Source: Ignavibacteriae bacterium HGW-Ignavibacteriae-4
Lineage (GTDB): Bacteria > Bacteroidota > Ignavibacteria > Kapaibacteriales > UBA2268
Reading direction: 5' to 3'
DNA: 45,021 bases
Assembly (NCBI GenBank): GCA_002839765.1
Contig: PGYR01000005.1
Location: 64,001-109,021 of the forward strand
The notes beneath the pieces were generated by a model. It was not told the origin of the DNA. It worked only from the letters and a program-made list of their open reading frames with translations, and searched no databases. Both the position numbers and the translations under genes were made by a program. Shown here in pieces: positions 34,563 to 43,718 of this stretch (position 1 is its first letter; every line of letters begins with the position of its first letter).

Positions 34563-36422
34563 CTACACCGCCTCTACCGCTTTACTCCCCATAAAGAACG
34601 TCTTCATCTTGCCCTTGCCTTTGACTTCCATTTCGCCTCTTGCTTCAAATTCAAACACCTTAAACTCAGCTACTGCCACTTTGAAGCGTTCTGATATATG
34701 TACTGAACCTGATTGACCCGTTGATTCCATACGGCTAGCAGTGTTTACTGCATCAGACCACATATCATAGATGAACTTCTTCTCTCCAATTACTCCGGCT
34801 ACTACAGGTCCACAATCAAGTCCAATCCTAACATCTAACTTGAATCCGTGGTCAGTATAGTAATCAACCATATAGTCTCTAACTTCTATCGCCATTCTAG
34901 CTGCTCTTAGAGTGTTGTCTTTTTGGATAACGGGGATTCCTGCTGCTGCCATATAGCAATCACCGATGGTCTTGATTTTTTCCAAACCGTGCTTACTTGC
35001 AATAGAATCATAGTGCGTAAATACCTTGTTCAATGCCTGAACAATATCAGTTGGATCCGAGTCTTTTGACATTGCTGTGAAGCCAACAATGTCTATGAAT
35101 ATAATGGACGCTTGCTCGAAGTGGTCAGATATCGGGTGTTCTTTTTTCTTCAATCGTTTAGCTATTGAAATAGGCAATACATTGTACAATAGTTTATCAG
35201 ATTTCTTTCTTTGATATGCTATAAGCACCAAGATAGATATTACAAACGCAATTATTCCTATTCCTGAATAGATTATAAACATCTTCTCACTTTCTTGGGC
35301 TAATAATTGTACTTCTTGCTTTTCTATTTTTATGCGGTTTACGTCATTTTCTCTTGCCTTTTCAAGGGCAGCTATCTTTTTATTATTCTCTTGAGAAAAC
35401 ACGGAGTCTTTTTTTAATTGAAATTTCTTGTGATATTCTAAGGCTTTTCCAAGTTGTCCTAGTCCTTCAAAAGCTGTAGAAATTTCCTTAAAAATAACAT
35501 GTTGCAATTGTCCAAGTCCAATTGAATCAGCTAGGTCTTCTGCACGAATTCCAAACTCCAGTGCTTTTTTATAATTTTGATCTTTATTTATAAGTCTAGA
35601 ATTTGATGAAGTTTCCCCTTTGCTTTGTAATTTATCTATTTGCTTAGCTCTCGCAATATAGTTACCTGCTAACATAAAATAGGTATAGGTAACTTGTCTT
35701 GTATCACCAATCTCTTCATTTAGTATTAAACCTCTTGTTAAGTAATCTAAAGACTTATCAAGTTCATTTATAATTGTATAAAGTGAACCTATATTAATTA
35801 AATTATTAGCGACACCAGATTTTTTTCCTAACTCTTCATTTATCTTTAATGCTTTTTGATAATATTCTATGGCTTTGGGATAGTTGAATTGATAATCATA
35901 AATAATTCCAATATTGCCTAGATTACTAGCAATACCATCTTTATTTCCTAACCCTTCATTTATCTTTAATGCTTTTTGATAATATTCTAAAGCTTTTGGA
36001 TAGTTGGATTGAGCCTCATAAACATTTCCTATATCATTTAAAGATTCTGCATATTCAAATTTCAGCTCATATTTTGTGAAAATCTTTATCGCCTTATGAT
36101 ATACTTCAATAGCCACAGGGTAATTAGATTTAACCAGATTATTCTCAGCTATGGAATAATAACACCATCCTTTTCCTTTTTCCCAATCGATTTGTTTAGC
36201 TAATGATAAAGCTTGTTCACCATATTCTAACCCAATCTTCGGGTTAATCATACTCATTTGATCTCCAAGTTGTGCCAAAAGCTTCACTTCATTCGTATCA
36301 CCTTTTGCATTGGGTAGCTCTGCTATGAGCGAATCTAGTTTGGCTTGACTGGAGAGGGGTTCGGTTTTTAGGTTTGTGCTAATTAGCATAAAAGCTATTA
36401 GGGAAAGTAGTATATATTTCAA
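34563..36422 (-). CDS. TPR-containing transmembrane class III adenylate cyclase (short paralogue)
   Basis: 619 residues. A signal sequence (1-20) places the N-terminal TPR array (about 60-335, four to six units such as 'YPKALEYYQKALKINE') in the periplasm. A coiled segment leads to one membrane helix (about 380-402), then the short 'LLYNVLPISIAKRLKKKEHP' transducer and a cytoplasmic cyclase domain (about 435-600). Catalytic features: metal-binding Asp in 'FIDIVGF' and 'GLDCGPV', substrate-selecting Lys in 'KIKTIGD' and Asp in 'MWSDAVN', and the Asn/Arg pair in 'NTASRME'. These predict ATP as substrate and cAMP as product. Its paralogue lies upstream at 36702. The stop codon sits at a half copy of the GAGACGT repeat. 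Confidence 0.9.
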   Translation of the reverse strand: MKYILLSLIAFMLISTNLKTEPLSSQAKLDSLIAELPNAKGDTNEVKLLAQLGDQMSMINPKIGLEYGEQALSLAKQIDWEKGKGWCYYSIAENNLVKSNYPVAIEVYHKAIKIFTKYELKFEYAESLNDIGNVYEAQSNYPKALEYYQKALKINEGLGNKDGIASNLGNIGIIYDYQFNYPKAIEYYQKALKINEELGKKSGVANNLINIGSLYTIINELDKSLDYLTRGLILNEEIGDTRQVTYTYFMLAGNYIARAKQIDKLQSKGETSSNSRLINKDQNYKKALEFGIRAEDLADSIGLGQLQHVIFKEISTAFEGLGQLGKALEYHKKFQLKKDSVFSQENNKKIAALEKARENDVNRIKIEKQEVQLLAQESEKMFIIYSGIGIIAFVISILVLIAYQRKKSDKLLYNVLPISIAKRLKKKEHPISDHFEQASIIFIDIVGFTAMSKDSDPTDIVQALNKVFTHYDSIASKHGLEKIKTIGDCYMAAAGIPVIQKDNTLRAARMAIEVRDYMVDYYTDHGFKLDVRIGLDCGPVVAGVIGEKKFIYDMWSDAVNTASRMESTGQSGSVHISERFKVAVAEFKVFEFEARGEMEVKGKGKMKTFFMGSKAVEAV

Positions 36423-36681: not shown

Positions 36682-36702
36682 GAGACGTATGCAATACGTC
36701 TC
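36682..36702 (+). repeat. GAGACGTAT-gca-ATACGTCTC palindrome touching a cyclase stop codon
   Basis: A perfect 9-bp palindrome with a 3-base centre. Its right arm shares base 36702 with the TAG stop (complement CTA at 36702-36704) of the long cyclase paralogue. On the minus strand it is followed by A-rich sequence, so it is not a classic terminator for that gene. Related copies: 31518-31539 (degenerate), 34556-34565 (half) and 39008-39052 (split by an insert). Confidence 0.75.
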
Positions 36703-38795
36703 TACAATGCCTCTACCGCTTTACTCCCCATAAAGAAAGTCTTCATTTTGCCCTTGCCTTTTATCTCTATTTCACCACGTTCTTCGTAGTCGAATTGCTC
36801 ATACTCTGTAACAGCCTCTTTGAAGCGTTCGGAGACGTGTACTTCTCCAGCGATTGATGATGATTCCATTCGGCTAGCTGTGTTCACGGCATCCGACCAC
36901 ATGTCGTAGATGAACTTGTTTTCGCCGATTACTCCAGCTACTACTGGTCCACAATCTAGTCCTATACGAACCTCTATCTTGGTTCCATCGGTAGTGTGGT
37001 AGTCTTCCATCATCGACTTTACTTCGAGTGCCATTTGGGCGGCTCTGTGGGTGTTGTCTTTTTGTACTTCTGGGATGCCGGCTGCAGCCATATAGCTATC
37101 ACCTATGGTTTTGATTTTCTCTAGTCCGTACTTTTTAGCAATTGTATCAAATTTTGTAAAAATAGTATTTAGATTTGAAACTAGTGCTTGTGGGTCTGCA
37201 TCTTGTGCCATTTCTGTGAAGTTTACAATGTCAATAAACACAATAGATGCCTGTGTGAAATAGTCTGATATTGGATGTTCTTTCTTTTTCAATCGCTTGG
37301 CAATAGAGACTGGAAGTACGTTGTATAATAACTTATCTGAGCGTTTTAGTAGTCTATAAATAACAAGCATCACAACCGCCATTAGTAGTACTAGTCCGAT
37401 AGAAAAGTAAAGTATCAACTTTTCTCTTTTTTCCTGTTCAACTATTCTTATCTTCTGTTTTTCTATTTCCTTTTGTTTTAGGTCATCTTCTCTTGCTTTT
37501 TCTAAGGTGGCTATTTTGTCTGTGTTTTCTTGTGAAAAAACAGAGTCTTGGAGTTCTTTATGTTCTTTATATGACTCAAATGCTTTTTTATAATCACCTT
37601 TTAGTTCATATGCTTCTGAAAGGGTTTTTAAACTGCTACTTCTTTGATCAAGTTCACCCATTTCTTCATATAATAATATTGACTGGGTAGTGTATTCAAT
37701 TGATTTGTTTAAATTAACTTCCCTATTTACTAGTAAGCCAATTTTATCATCACTATTATTAATAATAGAATCTTGTGAAATTGTTAAATAAAGATAGCCA
37801 ATACCTGCATAATTATATGCAAGACCGATTTTGCTACCAACTTCTTTATTTATATTTATTGCTTTTTCAAAGTATTCTAATGCCTTAGGGTAATTAGATT
37901 GATAAGTATAGATACTAGCTATATTCCCAAGCTTAATGGCAATGCTCGTTTTATTTCCAAGTTCTTCGTTGATTCTTATGGATTTAAAATAACATTCCAA
38001 AGCTTTTGGATAATCAAGTAGTGAAGTGTATATATTTCCCAAATTTCCAAGGTTGAGCGCAAAACTTGATTTATTTCCTAATTCTTCAAATATTTTTACT
38101 GACTTTTGAGTGTATTCTAACGCCTTTGTGTGATTAGAAAGATTATTGTAAATAGTTCCAATATTACCAAGGTTAAGTGCGATACTATTTTTGTTCTCTA
38201 TCCTTTCATTTATTTTTAATGCCTTTTGATAGTATTCCAATGCCATTGGATAATTAGACTGATAGGTATAAACATTACCTATATCCCCTATATTAAGTGC
38301 AAGATTAGTACTATCACCCGTTTCAAGGTTAATTTTAATTGCCCTTTGATAGTACTCTATTGCTTTAGAGTAGTTCAATTGATAAAAATAAATAGTCCCC
38401 ATATTTCCGAGATTATATGATATACCCTTTTTATCTTTTAACTTTTCATTTATTACTAGTGCCTTTTTAAAGTATTCTAATGCCTTGGGAAAATTATTTT
38501 TTCCACCTAAATAACAAGTTCCAAGAGAATTATAACAATTAGCTTTTCCTTTTTCCCATTTTATTTTATTTGATAATTTTAAACCTTTTAAACCAAAAGC
38601 TATACTTTCGTCAACATTCGTAGAATAATTTTCAAAGGATAGAGAGGCTAATAATTTCACCTTATTAGTATCCCCTTTTGCTTTGGGTAACTCGGCTAGT
38701 AGTGAGTCTAGTCTTTCTTGACCTTGTAGCTTTTCGGCTTTTAGGTTAACAGTTGTTATAGTTAGTGCGAGTAGAATTAGAAGTAGTGTTTTCAT
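36702..38795 (-). CDS. TPR-containing transmembrane class III adenylate cyclase (long paralogue)
   Basis: 697 residues, the same architecture as the 34563 gene with more TPR units. A signal sequence (1-20), about eight TPR motifs in the periplasm ('YPMALEYYQKALKINE', 'LGNKTSIAIKLGNIASIY'), a charged coil, a membrane helix (about 459-482), the 'LLYNVLPVSIAKRLKKKEHP' transducer and a cyclase domain from about 515. Catalytic Asp ('FIDIVNF', 'GLDCGPV'), Lys ('KIKTIGD'), Asp ('MWSDAVN') and Asn/Arg ('NTASRME') are all present, as in adenylate cyclases. It is the upstream member of the pair on the minus strand; a 279-base repeat-filled gap separates them, so co-transcription is uncertain. Confidence 0.9.
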   Translation of the reverse strand: MKTLLLILLALTITTVNLKAEKLQGQERLDSLLAELPKAKGDTNKVKLLASLSFENYSTNVDESIAFGLKGLKLSNKIKWEKGKANCYNSLGTCYLGGKNNFPKALEYFKKALVINEKLKDKKGISYNLGNMGTIYFYQLNYSKAIEYYQRAIKINLETGDSTNLALNIGDIGNVYTYQSNYPMALEYYQKALKINERIENKNSIALNLGNIGTIYNNLSNHTKALEYTQKSVKIFEELGNKSSFALNLGNLGNIYTSLLDYPKALECYFKSIRINEELGNKTSIAIKLGNIASIYTYQSNYPKALEYFEKAININKEVGSKIGLAYNYAGIGYLYLTISQDSIINNSDDKIGLLVNREVNLNKSIEYTTQSILLYEEMGELDQRSSSLKTLSEAYELKGDYKKAFESYKEHKELQDSVFSQENTDKIATLEKAREDDLKQKEIEKQKIRIVEQEKREKLILYFSIGLVLLMAVVMLVIYRLLKRSDKLLYNVLPVSIAKRLKKKEHPISDYFTQASIVFIDIVNFTEMAQDADPQALVSNLNTIFTKFDTIAKKYGLEKIKTIGDSYMAAAGIPEVQKDNTHRAAQMALEVKSMMEDYHTTDGTKIEVRIGLDCGPVVAGVIGENKFIYDMWSDAVNTASRMESSSIAGEVHVSERFKEAVTEYEQFDYEERGEIEIKGKGKMKTFFMGSKAVEAL

Positions 38796-38869
38796 AAATC
38801 ACCTGTTTGGAGAAAATATTAACCGTACAAGTTAATAAAAATAATTGGAATAGGGGGGGATAATCAATT

Positions 38870-38953
38870 AAGTCCCTCCTTGAGGAGGGAGTTAGGGAGG
38901 TGTCAAGTAGAAAGGTATAACACCCCCCCTAAATCCCCCCTGTTAGGGGACTT
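38870..38953 (+). repeat. 84-bp CCCTCC/GGGAGG inverted-repeat element
   Basis: The element starts AAGTCCCTCCT and ends AGGGGACTT; inside are TCCCTCCT-TG-AGGAGGGA (38873-38890) and a C-rich inverted block CACCCCCCCTAAATCCCCCC. It lies between the long cyclase start and the phage portal gene. It is the most complete copy of the family also seen at 31450. Confidence 0.7.
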
Positions 38954-39007
38954 GCAAAGGAAGACTAACTCTTTGCTAACTGTGTTTACTATGAGTAACA
39001 AGATTGA

Positions 39008-39055
39008 GAGACGTATGCACTTCGACGCCGCTCAGTGTAAACAATACGTCTCTAC
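39008..39055 (+). repeat. GAGACGTAT...ATACGTCTC palindrome with a 27-base insert
   Basis: The same 9-bp arms as at 36682 (39008-39016 and 39044-39052) are separated by a segment containing CACTTCGACGCCGCTCAGTG, which itself resembles the CTTCGACTCCGCTCAG repeat family. A nested arrangement. It lies 35 bases past the end of the phage portal gene. Confidence 0.65.
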
Positions 39056-39089
39056 GATTCATTTTAACTCAAAAATAATTCTTGAAAAT

Positions 39090-40193
39090 CTAGTCCAAAT
39101 CCTCTCTCGAGTAGCCATATTGCTTTATCCAATAATCACTGCTGAAAGTGATACCACCGAAGCGTTGGATTTTCAGGTCTCGATCTAGCTTAGTGTGTAG
39201 GTTTTCTTGTTCGGTAATGTATCTGAATTGTGTGCCGTCTGTATGTCCGAAGTTGAGCTTTACTATGTATCCGATTAGTGTATTGATAGCTGATTCGACT
39301 AATCGCATATCTGATCTGATAATCTCGTTTCTTATCTTGTAGTGAGTTTCTGCTGCTGCTTTGCTACCACTACTAACTTCCGTTGTTAGTGTTTGTGATA
39401 GTATTGCTTTCGAGACTTCACTATTCGATAGTTTAATCATCTCACTGTATAGCCGAACAGAGCTATAACGATGGGGTTCTTCCATTGATATTTCTATGTC
39501 GTTCGGGGTTACTATTACGCTGTCTTCGGTCATTCCGGCTAGCTCCTCAGCTAATCTTTCGGACTCGGCTTTGCTTGCTCCTCGCGAGTATTTGCCTATT
39601 AGTAGTGGCATTCCGTATCGTTCCATGAAGTTTACCCAGAACCTAATACCTCCATTTTTGAACTTAATCGGCCAATAGCATTTCGATAATAAGGCAGTTC
39701 CGTAAGGTGCAGAATGGCTCGGTTTATTACGGATATCGAGGAACTTCATTTCGGGTAGTTTTACGCCTTTTGCTTGTCCGTTCGGTTTGTACCTTAGTTT
39801 GCCCTCAGAATCTATGTAAAATAGCTCTTGTGGCTTTGAAACGGCCTTATATGGTATGGTGAAATCTCCTTCGTTCTTCCAATATATTTCTATTGGCTGG
39901 AAACCGTAAAGTAGTGAGTCGAGTATATCCTCGGCTAGTTGTTGAATATCCAGTTTATTGAATACCTCCGTTATGAATTGGCTATTAGCACCTACTAGTT
40001 CATATTGCGTTGATAGTGTTCCGCTTTTTCTAGATTGTATGCAACTCCAAAGATGAGCATCGTAAAGCAGATCGCGATAACCAGCATAAGTGCTTCCAGA
40101 CTTCCTAAGCACTGTATCGGGGTTTGGGATAGCGTCCATTAATGAGCCAAATCCATTCCCGAATTTCACTATTTCATTATATATTTTTGTCAT
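39090..40193 (-). CDS. Phage portal protein, Mu gp29-like (DUF935)
   Basis: 367 residues from the ATG at 40193, which follows the upstream stop by one base; an ATG five codons earlier overlaps that gene and is less likely. The DUF935 pattern is clear: 'LRKSGSTYAGYRDLLYDAHLWSC' (split here: GYRDLLYDAHL near 45), 'DILDSLLYGFQPIEIYW', 'RFWVNFMERYGMPLLIGKY' and 'LTTEVSSGSKAAAETHYKIR'. In Mu this protein forms the portal ring through which DNA enters and leaves the head. Mu gp29 is about 510 residues, so this one is short at the C-terminus. No terminase or capsid partner lies nearby. Confidence 0.85.
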   Translation of the reverse strand: MTKIYNEIVKFGNGFGSLMDAIPNPDTVLRKSGSTYAGYRDLLYDAHLWSCIQSRKSGTLSTQYELVGANSQFITEVFNKLDIQQLAEDILDSLLYGFQPIEIYWKNEGDFTIPYKAVSKPQELFYIDSEGKLRYKPNGQAKGVKLPEMKFLDIRNKPSHSAPYGTALLSKCYWPIKFKNGGIRFWVNFMERYGMPLLIGKYSRGASKAESERLAEELAGMTEDSVIVTPNDIEISMEEPHRYSSVRLYSEMIKLSNSEVSKAILSQTLTTEVSSGSKAAAETHYKIRNEIIRSDMRLVESAINTLIGYIVKLNFGHTDGTQFRYITEQENLHTKLDRDLKIQRFGGITFSSDYWIKQYGYSREDLD

Positions 40194-40194
40194 T

Positions 40195-40605
40195 TTATTT
40201 GCTCGCATTTGATAATAAATAACCTAGTACTAGGCCACCTGTAGCTATCAGTGGGTCTTCCCACCAGGGCTCTTTTAGTGGCTCGCTAGCTGCGATTACT
40301 CGTTCTTTATAGATTGTGTCAGTCGCCATTCGGATAGCCAGCTTCATCTCATTTTCTGGGTAATCATATCTCACTTGTATAGTGTCGTATTTGTAAATAG
40401 TATCCACCCAAGCTGTGAATGGGCGTGTTTGTATAATCGTGTCTGATTTGTATATTAGCTTTGGTTTTATTTTTTCTATCACTATTGGCTCTTGCACTAT
40501 GGTAAGAGTGTCAGTCGTGTGATTGATAATTTGATTTGGGTAATAGATTTTTGTGATAGACATTCCTATCAACAAAGCTAGTATCACCAGTATTATGTCT
40601 TTCAT
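40195..40605 (-). CDS. Membrane-anchored phage protein, spanin-like
   Basis: 136 residues from the ATG at 40605, chosen because GAGG lies seven bases upstream; ATGs 12 and 36 bases earlier are in frame but overlap the tail-fibre gene end. An N-terminal helix (about 3-20, 'IILVILALLIGMSITKIYY') is followed by a periplasmic-type stretch rich in DTI/YKSDTI repeats and a short hydrophobic C-terminus ('ATGGLVLGYLLSN'). Similar single-anchor proteins accompany holin/endolysin genes in Bacteroidota phages. The spanin role is inferred from context only. Confidence 0.55.
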   Translation of the reverse strand: MKDIILVILALLIGMSITKIYYPNQIINHTTDTLTIVQEPIVIEKIKPKLIYKSDTIIQTRPFTAWVDTIYKYDTIQVRYDYPENEMKLAIRMATDTIYKERVIAASEPLKEPWWEDPLIATGGLVLGYLLSNASK

Positions 40606-40618
40606 ATTGTTCCTCATA

Positions 40619-41929
40619 TTATATTTCCGCGGAGCATACATAATGTCCGCTAATTGAATTTGTACTCACCGTAAATCCTGCATCGTTTTTGATTGAGAAA
40701 GAATTCTCTGAAATATTATCAGCGATAACCGGGATATTCGTTCCCGTGCTAACTTGCCATTTACCCAACTCGGGTGGGTTATTAGCACCAATCAAACTAA
40801 TGAGTGGCGGCTTATACATCGGGGTAATACTCACACTACCGAAAGCACCGCCACTATCTGTACCGAACGAAGTAGGGAATACAATTTTACCATTTTTGCT
40901 AATAGTTGTGGGTGCGAATCTATTCACATAGCTTTTCTGATAGAATTTCAAACACTCATCCAAATCAAATTGATATGTATTCGGAATGAATTCCAAGGCA
41001 GAATTATTGGGTAATAACTGAGCTTCATTTATAGTGATATTCTCTCCAGCGGTAACACCATCAAACCACACAAAAACAGCGATATTTGTAACATCACTTG
41101 TTGATATTTCAATGTCTTCTAACTTGATTTTTGTTTGAGTTTCGCTTAACTCTATTGAATCACTAACACCCTCATAGTGCCAATTAGTAGCGAGAGTGGG
41201 GTTTGTACCTTCACTATTCCAAGAGCTAACTACGTCATTTGTTGTTGAGTCGCTTACCCCGTTCCATGATAATATTGCCACTTTTACAGAAGCATTACTA
41301 TTACTAGAAAGCTGAACAGAAGTAGAGAATTTCCCTACAAGAGAAGGGCTCAAATACAGATTAGGAACTATCTGAATGAAGCCAAATTTCGTATCATCAA
41401 TTGATTCTATTTGCATACCCGTTTGTTCTGTCGTAGTTGCTATGAGGGTATTAGCATCGCTTAAAGCAATCCATCTATCAGCGACGAAAGTACTATCAGT
41501 CGCTACAATAGAAGTTCGGTTAGTAATTATGCATTTACCATCCGCTTCGCTTGTCTCCGATTCATCACTACCAGAGCTGTAATATCTAAAGCTAGTGTCA
41601 TCGACTACTATTATCGTTTCACCACTTGTAGTATCATAGCTACTATCGCTCATCTGAGTTACTTGTGCAACATCCGTAGTCTGGAAGCCATGTGGTACGC
41701 TTGTCTCCAAGGTTGCAACATTCGAGAGTCGGCTTCTGTTCACTATCTCAAATTCATTTGCTACTCTCTGCCAAATCTTAAAATTTGGATTGATGAGTAG
41801 GTTGTTTCTTTTATTAGTTTCTTCTAATTTATTATCAATTAGTTCTATCAAATCCGATTGAATCTCTATGTTTCCGCCGATGTTACCCCAGATATTCTCG
41901 GGGAGTGGTGGGAAATAACTAAATGGCAT
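40619..41929 (-). CDS. Phage tail-fibre / appendage-like protein
   Basis: 436 residues from the ATG at 41929, preceded by AAGGGGG; an ATG 33 bases earlier lacks such a site. After a short head-proximal segment with a helix (about 30-45, 'LIELIDNKLEETNKR'), the chain reads 'LLINPNFKIWQR' and later 'FVADRWIA', the opening of many phage fibres and appendage proteins with jelly-roll carbohydrate-binding domains. An insertion of about 90 residues separates these blocks. The last ~100 residues resemble a distal fibre domain ('DECLKFYQKSY', a recurrent fibre motif). It probably contacts the host surface. Confidence 0.7.
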   Translation of the reverse strand: MPFSYFPPLPENIWGNIGGNIEIQSDLIELIDNKLEETNKRNNLLINPNFKIWQRVANEFEIVNRSRLSNVATLETSVPHGFQTTDVAQVTQMSDSSYDTTSGETIIVVDDTSFRYYSSGSDESETSEADGKCIITNRTSIVATDSTFVADRWIALSDANTLIATTTEQTGMQIESIDDTKFGFIQIVPNLYLSPSLVGKFSTSVQLSSNSNASVKVAILSWNGVSDSTTNDVVSSWNSEGTNPTLATNWHYEGVSDSIELSETQTKIKLEDIEISTSDVTNIAVFVWFDGVTAGENITINEAQLLPNNSALEFIPNTYQFDLDECLKFYQKSYVNRFAPTTISKNGKIVFPTSFGTDSGGAFGSVSITPMYKPPLISLIGANNPPELGKWQVSTGTNIPVIADNISENSFSIKNDAGFTVSTNSISGHYVCSAEI

Positions 41930-41939
41930 TTTTGCCCCC

Positions 41940-42278
41940 TTATTTATAATACAAATGGGCACTAATCTGACCTGAGATTATGCCCACGGGTATATATTCT
42001 ATTTTGAAATATTTGAAAACTTGTCGGATAACTATTAGCTCCGAATCATCGAAATTGTTCGATGAATTTATCCTATACATTTTCCTGTAGCCTGCGTTGC
42101 TCTGGTCGTTCGAACCGATTAGCATTAGGTGTCCAGTCATTGGCCCTGCTATACCAGACCAGCTAATTTGGAGTGAGACAACTTTCTCGTTTCGCCCTTT
42201 CATCTCTGGTGCTACGTCCACCCATTTGCTTGAGAAAGGAGTGTTAGCAGTGTGGTTGTTCATTAATCTAATTATCAT
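41940..42278 (-). CDS. Small phage-cassette protein, unknown
   Basis: 112 residues. GAGGTG lies four bases before the ATG, and the start overlaps the endolysin end by 11 bases. The chain looks like a small beta-sandwich ('VVSLQISWSGIAGPMTGHLML', split: QISWSGIAGPMTG near 38-50; 'KYFKIEYIPVGIISGQISAHL'), a pattern common in phage baseplate or fibre accessory proteins. I do not recognise the family. It sits directly upstream of the fibre gene, so a structural role is likely. Confidence 0.55.
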   Translation of the reverse strand: MIIRLMNNHTANTPFSSKWVDVAPEMKGRNEKVVSLQISWSGIAGPMTGHLMLIGSNDQSNAGYRKMYRINSSNNFDDSELIVIRQVFKYFKIEYIPVGIISGQISAHLYYK

Positions 42279-42855
42279 CTTTCACCTCGAATTTTATAAC
42301 ACCTCTGAGCATTAGTTTGCCAAGTGGATGGCTTAGGTATCTCGTCTTTATGCCAACACCCTCGCCATCACTCAGTTTTACATTAAAGGCAATAGTTTTG
42401 ACTATTCCCCTGCTCTTTGTTTCTATGACTCTCTCTATGTGACCTTGCCAACTTGACTTCGACTTCCAAACTAATAAGTCGTGCCGAGTAATTGGTTTAT
42501 CAACTCTTTTTCCTCGACTAATAGCATCATTCAAAATGGCATTGGCAACGGCAGTTCGTCTGATTGGTATTTCCGATTTACTAAGATTCAGCTTCACTGC
42601 TGCCTTACTGAACCCCCAGTATACACCAGCCGCACAGTAGGGATGACCTTCACCCAATCCCACCGAAGCGAGGTATTTTACCACCTCACCCCTATTGTTC
42701 CCAACCTCTCTTACTCCGATTTGCGATAGAGCAACCCTCTCGGATTCTATTAGCAAATCGCTCTTGCAGGGCAATTCGTACATAGTATAGGAGCAGAGAA
42801 GAATACTTAGGAGAACTGCACCAAATAAACGCCCAGCACTGATAGACCTACGCAT
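42268..42855 (-). CDS. Endolysin: CHAP/NlpC-like peptidoglycan hydrolase with N-terminal membrane segment
   Basis: 195 residues. A hydrophobic segment (about 10-27) could be a signal-anchor or signal peptide. The catalytic domain starts near 38 with 'ALSQIGVREVGNNRGEVV', then the nucleophile C74 in 'HPYCAAGVYW', H139 in 'WQGHIERVIE' and a late 'FNVKLSDGEGVGIKTRY' block, matching CHAP-like amidase/endopeptidases of Bacteroidota phages. It would cut peptidoglycan once across the membrane. The start overlaps the holin-like gene by 49 bases, with GGGTG five bases upstream. The holin-endolysin order is typical of lysis cassettes. Confidence 0.8.
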   Translation of the reverse strand: MRRSISAGRLFGAVLLSILLCSYTMYELPCKSDLLIESERVALSQIGVREVGNNRGEVVKYLASVGLGEGHPYCAAGVYWGFSKAAVKLNLSKSEIPIRRTAVANAILNDAISRGKRVDKPITRHDLLVWKSKSSWQGHIERVIETKSRGIVKTIAFNVKLSDGEGVGIKTRYLSHPLGKLMLRGVIKFEVKDDN

Positions 42856-43082
42856 ATATGCACCCCCATAAATATGTGACCGAGATTATTAGTTTCTAGC
42901 TCGTGAGTGAAGTCGATTTTGGTATATGAATAAACGGCGAGTGCCGATAGTCCAACAGCCAGCACCTCTATCATCACAATTATCAGCAGAGTATGTAGCT
43001 CTTCAATTCCGGGTAATAGGAAGACCCAAGCGAAAAGTAGAACGGACGCCAATAGTCCATATCTCAAGCAATTTCTATACAT
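42807..43082 (-). CDS. Holin-like small membrane protein
   Basis: 91 residues from the ATG at 43082, which has a near-perfect GGAGGT four bases upstream; a longer frame to 43115 lacks one. Three hydrophobic helices (about 8-26, 31-51 and 68-88) with few charges fit a class I holin. It overlaps the gp36-like gene by 8 bases and the endolysin start by 49 bases. The function is inferred from topology and position next to the endolysin. Confidence 0.6.
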   Translation of the reverse strand: MYRNCLRYGLLASVLLFAWVFLLPGIEELHTLLIIVMIEVLAVGLSALAVYSYTKIDFTHELETNNLGHIFMGVHICVGLSVLGVYLVQFS

Positions 43083-43527
43083 CTGTACCTCCGAAATAAG
43101 AGTCGAGCACATCACCGGAATAGAGGCGATTACCCTTCGATTTAGTGCTGATGATTGTGGGTGGTGCGTCTATGCCGGCGGTGTAGCCACCCAAGTATAA
43201 CTCACCTGTGCGGATGTCATCAAGCAACTGCATAGATTCCTCGTAGTAACCGTTAATCTCCGATGGGAGCGGCAACTCACCATACTCTATTCGATAGAGA
43301 TGATAGACAGTGAGGTCAATCGAAAGTGAGATAATCAACGCATCTGGGTCGTCGAATGGAACGCTGTATCTGCCATGCAAAGTAGCATCTATTGTGGCAT
43401 CTGCCAAATCGCGAGCTACGTCCGTTCTGTCTGTGTCTATCGTTGTACCTGTGTCATCGCCTGTTAGCTTAGCTAACTCCGATGAGGTGAACCTCTTTAA
43501 TAGGTCTGTATTAGATGAATAAGGCAT
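43075..43527 (-). CDS. Mu gp36-like protein (DUF1320)
   Basis: 150 residues, preceded by GGAGG. It matches the DUF1320 pattern: 'YSSNTDLLKRFTSSELAKLT', 'VARDLADATIDATLHGRYSVPF' (key: a helix ending LHGRYSVPF near 50-58), 'DLTVYHLYRIEYGELP'. In Mu-type phages gp36 lies in the head/connector cluster. It is the first gene of the cassette and faces away from the SBBP gene; the promoter must lie in 43528-43718. Its base composition is more GC-rich than the flanking host genes. Confidence 0.85.
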   Translation of the reverse strand: MPYSSNTDLLKRFTSSELAKLTGDDTGTTIDTDRTDVARDLADATIDATLHGRYSVPFDDPDALIISLSIDLTVYHLYRIEYGELPLPSEINGYYEESMQLLDDIRTGELYLGGYTAGIDAPPTIISTKSKGNRLYSGDVLDSYFGGTDV

Positions 43528-43718
43528 CTATTCCTCCGCTATTTATATTGTTATGAAATAATATCAAAAGCGAAAGTAATAGGTCAGACGAGGGTCTGCA
43601 TTAAAACGGAAATGAAAGTATTCCGAAATAGTATTGGAATGGTGTGGGGTAGTAAATAAGTTATGAATTGAATCTACTTTTTTCTATTTTGCGATATATG
43701 AAAATAAAGAGGTTCAAT

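Follow-up and report, generated by a model that had tools for sequence, protein, structure and literature searches.

A stretch of 45,021 nucleotides from the draft genome of Ignavibacteriae bacterium HGW-Ignavibacteriae-4 (contig PGYR01000005.1, positions 64,001 to 109,021; referred to here as the window) contains a cassette of seven phage-type genes, portal and lysis genes among them, with no capsid or terminase gene beside them. The question raised by this locus is what role, if any, so small a set of phage genes has in a bacterial chromosome. Contig C45 of the 3.36-Mb draft (genome G000, 110 contigs) ends with the window, and the cassette occupies window positions 39090 to 43527 on the minus strand. 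The cassette probably belongs, as one operon, to a domesticated gene-transfer-agent-like system of several loci that derives from a FluMu-like phage. This system is perhaps tailless, and with it the bacteria may enclose DNA in virus-like particles.

Distribution and gene order

The portal query matches 50 of 54 genomes of the same family, and in 48 of the 54 there is an open frame of fewer than 420 amino acids (aa; the short class), including a fragment in G012 and a split gene in G027; G016 and G029 possess a long-class portal only. Among 46 genomes of other families, five have matches, the best of which are all long-class. Records with related loci are titled Ignavibacteriota, Ignavibacteria, Bacteroidetes, Candidatus Kapaibacterium (Kapaibacterium is placed in Bacteroidota by NCBI) and, in one case, Desulfobulbaceae. 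The record with this last title (L023) and one from G047 (L048) carry the same cassette on contigs of 143,817 bases, probably a mis-binned contig.

A six-frame search of 41 loci (40 fetched loci and the window, some misses being contig ends) recovered the portal in all 41, the lysin in 39, the spanin in 38, the holin in 37, a small protein termed p112 in 32 and gp36 in 31, while a capsid was found for 35 of the 41 at the same or another fetched locus. Most loci read share the order protease, capsid, decoration, gp36, holin, lysin, p112, a variable fibre, spanin and portal; in G046 the first three match phrog_976 (E 2.6e-64), phrog_1005 (2e-88) and phrog_673 (1.5e-22), respectively. The initial annotation had noted the terminal portal and offered a circularly permuted integration among its explanations; the observation is correct, but a local permutation is not the explanation, since the end position is the usual one in these loci. 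Genes flanking the cassette differ between genera and are often common within a genus.

A scan of IMG/VR with the portal query gave no match, and a scan with the capsid of IMG/VR contig L155 returned L155 itself and one ordinary-looking phage contig, L188. L155 and L156 carry a more distant cassette in the order protease, capsid, membrane protein and decoration, which in L155 continues with gp36, a 92-aa protein, p112 and portal. The start of L155 we take from its motif to be the end of an M15-like endolysin, and no tail gene was noticed on these two short contigs.

Head and packaging genes at other loci

The lack of capsid and terminase holds for the segment but not for the genome, since a search for the missing genes, as the initial annotation had advised, finds protease, capsid, decoration, and large and small terminase elsewhere. 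Besides the cassette on C45, three further loci of G000 are involved: a protease-capsid-decoration operon on C106, near genes for glutamine synthetase III, a ferritin-like protein and a class II tRNA synthetase; a large terminase on C59, near histidine kinase, glycosyltransferase, deaminase and RsmB genes; and a small terminase on C100, directly behind a umuC-type polymerase gene whose copy in sibling G003 carries IMS domains. The protease-capsid-decoration operon stands at a separate locus in the window's genus. Of 36 family genomes, 29 have a capsid of the same class (E 2.5e-110 or lower), G000 among them at C106, and all 36 have a PF03237 terminase, as do 5 of 24 other genomes; some terminase copies are carried by prophages. 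The fetched stretches around 17 mapped terminase loci contain no cassette family. G034 is different, its terminase, capsid and portal following one another in this order on the same strand of one contig within 6.4 kb. Two IMG/VR contigs, L153 with terminase, protease, capsid, decoration and holin in a row and L157 with umuC directly behind the portal, suggest that the scattered loci were once together. The proteins are of tailed-phage type (Portal_Mu, Mu gp36, capsid E, Terminase_6 and PHROG head proteins).

A small-terminase profile matches 30 of the 54 genomes (E up to 0.01). In the single draft of G019 there are 21 matches (for example L207-L219), some of them fragments at contig ends. These are an amplified gene family, several members of which have an 11-bp repeat, described below, upstream where this was read.

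Selection and descent

Within the window's genus, ratios of non-synonymous to synonymous change (dN/dS, by Nei-Gojobori) were obtained at synonymous distances of 0.08 to >2, the highest of which are saturated. The ratios are 0.016-0.021 for capsid, 0.029-0.041 for gp36, 0.030-0.053 for p112, 0.067-0.096 for portal, 0.037-0.077 for the large terminase and 0.029-0.111 for holin, with RpoB as yardstick at 0.02-0.03. They are 0.054-0.158 for protease, 0.114-0.205 for lysin, 0.091-0.190 for spanin, 0.08-0.19 for fibre, 0.03-0.12 for the small terminase and 0.095 for decoration (the other pair being saturated). Judged by this comparison, which had also been proposed as a check, the cassette and the distant head and packaging genes are under purifying selection in one genus. 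In 26 non-prophage large terminases (G014 and short rows left out of the alignment) PPRHGKS, VDDP, D304, E363, D432 and D436 are kept at a level of at least 95%; these are presumably the Walker A and Walker B motifs of the ATPase and the acidic residues of the nuclease.

In the portal tree, all 40 short portals included fall into one clade (SH-aLRT, the Shimodaira-Hasegawa-like approximate likelihood ratio test, 99), separate from six portals of larger FluMu-like prophages. Within this clade the RpoB groups G046/G038/G051/G015, G022/G036, G011/G048/G042, G035/G021/G044, G040/G047 and the window's genus are recovered, as is G017/G033/G020, joined by two genomes absent from the RpoB tree. Non-prophage terminases likewise form a clade (SH-aLRT 81), with G014 grouping with the prophages under a long-branch warning. 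Mantel comparison with RpoB over all genomes gave 0.68 for portal, 0.70 for capsid and 0.82 for holin, and nine of ten genes, these three included, stood at 0 of 2000 permutations. The terminase stood at 284 of 2000, and at 3 of 5000 (0.398) without the prophage-like G014 and the partial G010. With one genome per genus the agreement holds for four of the ten genes (portal, capsid, holin and decoration). Descent within genera is supported, and deep vertical descent is likely, although not every gene shows it.

Larger prophages of the family hold related genes. The one in G035 carries head, packaging, lysis and tape-measure genes, with gp36, holin-like, lysin and spanin-like genes in that order, and the cassette profiles match its portal (9.7e-129), gp36 (4.8e-23), holin (3.4e-36), lysin (1.3e-75) and spanin (5.4e-49). 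Two large genes before this prophage were considered as its transposase and rejected, both being host-type.

A shared upstream repeat and a possible signal

Direct repeats of 11 bp (AAANNNTTTNN) lie upstream of the protease and large-terminase genes. Scored by the best three-unit match (maximum 18; G014 left out), 57 targets have a mean of 14.12, and 255 AT-matched intergenic controls average 12.44 (p=1.6e-11); with one value per genus p is 4.8e-5 over 15 genera for protease and 3.3e-4 over 22 genera for terminase. These p-values are optimistic because the motif was first noticed in the same regions that were later tested. Period 11 is the best among periods 9-14, with periods 10 and 12 enriched as well (2.1e-7 and 2.1e-5), and phased A-tracts as a general promoter feature may explain the repeat. 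The starts of operon-internal genes lack it. Across the window's genus the repeat is weak, and the gp36 and protease promoters there both carry a TACTTTCGC...ATTATTT block, read by eye in alignments; in the window this promoter-side block, TACTTTCGC N7 ATTATTTCATAA, lies upstream of gp36 at 43551 to 43578 on the minus strand.

Genome-wide sites in 13 genomes, at no more than one mismatch and with overlapping units counted singly, were compared with sites of the reversed pattern. The counts (pattern/reversed) are 63/9 in G019, 33/5 in G038, 28/2 in G024, 22/1 in G051, 18/12 in G052, 12/7 in G048, 11/2 in G046, 8/5 in G011, 6/3 in G042, 5/2 in G030, 3/4 in G031, 2/2 in G015 and 0/0 in G028. The G019 sites, many of them near contig ends, hold conserved G/C letters. 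In some genera many sites have small-terminase-like genes downstream, and five of six such repeat-downstream genes match phrog_6299, the PHROG of the prophage small terminase (E 1.4e-18, 1.5e-17, 9.6e-15, 6.8e-9 and, weakly, 0.0066); the sixth does not.

Two further settings of the repeat were observed. In genus g22 (L197, L199, L200, L227, L229, L231, L235, L236 and L237) the repeat and a TTGACATATCACTCCCACATCCTTATCTTTGC-type promoter are followed by no clear open reading frame (ORF), and these sites may be decayed copies or non-coding RNA. In the one-contig genome G048 (L281 5408-5943) a full array lies ahead of an S24 (UmuD-like) gene, and an integrase follows two genes further, so that this array may be part of a different element.

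A CI/LexA-type repressor gene (Phage_CI_repr and Peptidase_S24) adjoins gp36 on its upstream side in sibling G002, and a near-identical gene lies upstream of the umuC-small terminase pair in sibling G003. These positions, together with the umuC link, suggest DNA damage as a trigger.

Search for a tail

Searches for Mu F, the tape measure PF10145 and the sheath PF04984 found none of them in G000, and their counts across the family are 19, 16 and 3 of 54 genomes, respectively. The sheath count also gives no support to the phage-derived weapon envisaged in the initial annotation, insofar as a contractile tail is meant. A joined query of seven prophage proteins (the first left-operon gene, the small terminase, a neck-type protein and four 'tail region' genes, so called by position and bearing no PHROG name) has no match in the four genomes of the window's genus. 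Seven of 28 genomes match it, most of them carriers of larger prophages, and weak matches at or near its small-terminase part occur in G020, G024 and G038, with clearer ones in G048. The joined query missed the small terminase of G000, which was later found by profile. A diverged or unrelated tail elsewhere in G000 is possible, and the lack of a recognised tail lowers, without excluding, the prospect of delivery of DNA to other cells.

Interpretation and alternative explanations

The history proposed here begins with the capture of a FluMu-like phage by an ancestor of the family. The recognisable tail genes of the phage would then have disappeared, and those for portal, capsid, protease, decoration, terminase and lysis would have been retained, in what are now several host-flanked loci under a common control element. 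A signal, perhaps DNA damage, would switch these loci on together; a capsid would be matured by the protease around the portal, the small and the large terminase would cut host DNA and pump it into the capsid, and holin, lysin and spanin would lyse the cell and free the particles, which other cells could then take up.

A bolder version can be entertained only tentatively. In it a tail-free DNA-packaging head is kept family-wide under a dedicated operator, heads are made and released by capsid, motor and lysis genes alone, the dispersed small terminases choose the cargo, and uptake follows a host route instead of injection. Such a tail-free unit gains support from loci without a detectable gp36 or p112, in which holin directly follows decoration; these occur in G020, G033, G043 and G053 (two genera) and in the IMG/VR contigs L154 and L157.

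Several observations weigh against the proposed gene-transfer-agent-like system. The data are the genes, their conservation, purifying selection in one genus, the terminase motifs and the enriched upstream repeat, and from these joint expression, assembly, packaging of host DNA, release and transfer are inferred. The endogenized status of the system is read from dispersed loci and host-type neighbours, and no integration genes could be assigned to the larger prophages. None of the searches above recognised a tail in G000, nearly all genomes are drafts, six of the 54 have no short portal, and some copies look broken: the portal is split in G051 and G027, the lysin of G040 lies in two pieces, and G012 has remnants. 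When each genus is represented by one genome, there is no significant agreement with RpoB for terminase, lysin, gp36, spanin, p112 or protease. The repeat scores of G000 itself are weak (14 for protease, 14 for large terminase and 10 for small terminase, of 18). Before small terminases, with seed genomes and prophage copies left out, the mean score is 13.29 (n=17) versus 12.44 (p=0.12), and 4 of these 17 score at least 16 versus 6 of the 255 controls; the link between repeat and small terminase therefore rests mostly on the seed genera. The small-terminase matches include several prophage genes and a doubtful one in G027. The small terminase of G000 (L269 3993-4409) has 138 aa versus 164 aa in two siblings and is shorter at its C-terminus, an early end that may be a real change or an assembly error.

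That the cassette is the decaying remnant of a FluMu-type prophage which has lost most of its genes and is losing the others is very improbable. In favour of it, the larger family prophages do hold homologs of the portal, the terminase, the protease, the capsid or decoration protein, gp36, holin, lysin and spanin, and a few cassette copies are split or fragmentary. However, the retention of short portals in 48 of 54 genomes as a clade of their own, dN/dS of 0.02-0.2 over the whole range of synonymous distances, the same gene order across genera and the upstream repeats common to distant loci are all contrary to decay. The same portals, ratios and clade, with the neighbours common to two of three siblings, contradict both the recent deletion of a prophage that had been proposed and the assembly fragment of a complete prophage that had been feared. 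The portals, ratios and clade support the suggested selection for a role, insofar as a retained role other than a contractile-tail weapon is meant.

It is improbable that the system is a phage satellite with heads of its own making that depends on co-resident phages for its tails. A satellite would account for head, packaging and lysis genes without a recognised tail, and some family members do hold larger prophages with tape-measure genes; however, 38 of the 54 genomes have no tape-measure match, the genes of G000 are spread over several loci rather than one mobile unit (the search did not extend to an integrase), and lysis genes of its own are present. It is unlikely, if marginally less so, that the capsids serve a purpose other than gene transfer, such as DNA release or kin killing by lysis. 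Lysis genes are indeed among the best retained (lysin at 39 and holin at 37 of 41 loci) and a delivery tail was not recognised, but the conserved motor and nuclease motifs of the terminase and the many small terminases of G019 imply that DNA packaging matters.

Genes of the cassette and its flanks

All seven of the intact, overlapping ORFs first annotated on the minus strand were confirmed, with overlaps of 11 to 49 bases between successive ORFs at the starts given here. The first operon gene (43075 to 43527) encodes a gp36-like head-tail adaptor of 150 aa (PF07030, E 8.9e-22; phrog_195 connector), and the last (39090 to 40208) a short-class Mu-type portal of 372 aa (PF06074 Portal_Mu, E 1.3e-84). 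A fibre-like protein of 447 aa (40619 to 41962) matches phrog_4492 (E 6.9e-11), and these three identities agree with those first proposed. The fibre slot is the most variable position between genera and elsewhere holds other proteins or nothing.

The assignment of lysis genes holds in weaker form. The endolysin, a Cys/His peptidase-like protein of 195 aa (42268 to 42855), has a weak CHAP match below the cut-off (E 7.7e-4), and residues C74 and H139 are kept in at least 95% of 37 homologs. The holin-like membrane protein of 102 aa (42807 to 43115) and the spanin-like protein (40195 to 40641, or from a start at 40617) had no informative match in Pfam/PHROG-type library searches and are named from homology and position, since their homologs flank the lysin in the larger prophage at the E-values given above. 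The seventh protein, p112 (112 aa, 41940 to 42278), to which the initial annotation gave no name, is small and predicted to be all-beta, with an AlphaFold model at a predicted local distance difference test score (pLDDT) of 87.7; its fold matches (best E 2.9e-5, template modelling score 0.4-0.66) are to small uncharacterised tailed-phage proteins and are loose beta-sandwich resemblances only.

Host-type genes do lie on both sides of the cassette. Directly downstream of the portal are two adjacent genes that each combine TPR and adenylate/guanylate cyclase parts (34563-36422 and 36702-38795), and on the gp36 side is an SBBP beta-propeller gene. Comparison with siblings, another of the recommended checks, shows homologous genes on both sides in G003, where pieces of the TPR/cyclase genes come after the portal; in G001 the contig ends just beyond the portal and the same kind of neighbour precedes gp36, and in G002 the neighbours differ. 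The same neighbours recur in two of the three siblings, and a chimeric contig was rejected on this ground. The left edge of the cassette (38860-39060) carries intergenic inverted repeats of the CCTCCTTGAGGAGG type and GAGACGTAT...ATACGTCTC, the former also occurring upstream of umuC in L269.

Comparison with known systems

Gene transfer agents (GTAs) are delimited, in the cited portion of PMC9662315, by tailed-phage-derived proteins and particles, by full endogenization, often in several loci, by mostly vertical inheritance and co-diversification with hosts, by a gene set that cannot be carried whole in one particle, by packaging of mostly random host DNA and by delivery to other cells. Tailed-phage ancestry is found here for the proteins, and endogenization in several loci for C45, C106, C59 and C100, with host-type neighbours where searched. 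Two of those six features are thus present as far as genes can tell, and the system is therefore filed as GTA-like and not as a GTA. Other classes fit less well. Against a Mu-type prophage, the cassette lies between host-type genes, terminase and capsid are on other contigs and the tail-region queries are unmatched; a tailocin or other contractile weapon would carry the tail sheath, which is missing from G000; and satellites form one contiguous unit with head and packaging genes, in contrast to the several loci of G000. Capsid-forming phage-inducible islands make heads without tails of their own and are single mobile islands, unlike the several loci and lysis genes here.

Searches of the open-licence literature yielded, among the matches listed, no description of such a system from this bacterial group. 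Few GTA-like elements are described outside Alphaproteobacteria, and new ones are hard to distinguish from defective prophages, according to the cited part of PMC12946183. If the reading as a GTA-like element is correct, it would have a FluMu-type head, in a group without a listed report of one, and genes so dispersed that a single locus resembles scrap. The common upstream repeat would offer a sequence handle toward further parts, and the lack of a recognised tail poses the question of whether DNA can be moved by a particle without one.

The FluMu-like Pseudomonas phage Komp_PAO1_1 (PQ287647) has a portal that shares 33% identity with the window's and a capsid that shares 40% with the one in family member G046, but it is tailed, with annotated tape measure and baseplate, and its portal gene precedes the capsid match. 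The Caulobacter GTA is controlled by RogA, a LexA-like repressor, with a proposed role in DNA repair (PMC9632790, in the part cited). The CI/LexA-type S24 gene adjoining the cassette in G002 is a likeness to it, although the regulatory link here would follow from position only. FpGTA of Faecalibacterium resembles the present system as a GTA-like element outside Alphaproteobacteria, and its podovirus-like form implies that a long tail is not needed; it differs in its host phylum and in that packaging of host DNA is shown there (PMC12946183, same part). RcGTA, BaGTA and BhGTA, as described in the cited portion of PMC9662315, share with this system tailed-phage structural genes in several chromosomal loci, lysis genes and agreement with host groups within genera. 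The system described here would differ from them in its FluMu-type head, its host group, the absence of a recognised tail and its dispersed small-terminase paralogs, a feature without mention in that portion for the GTAs it treats.

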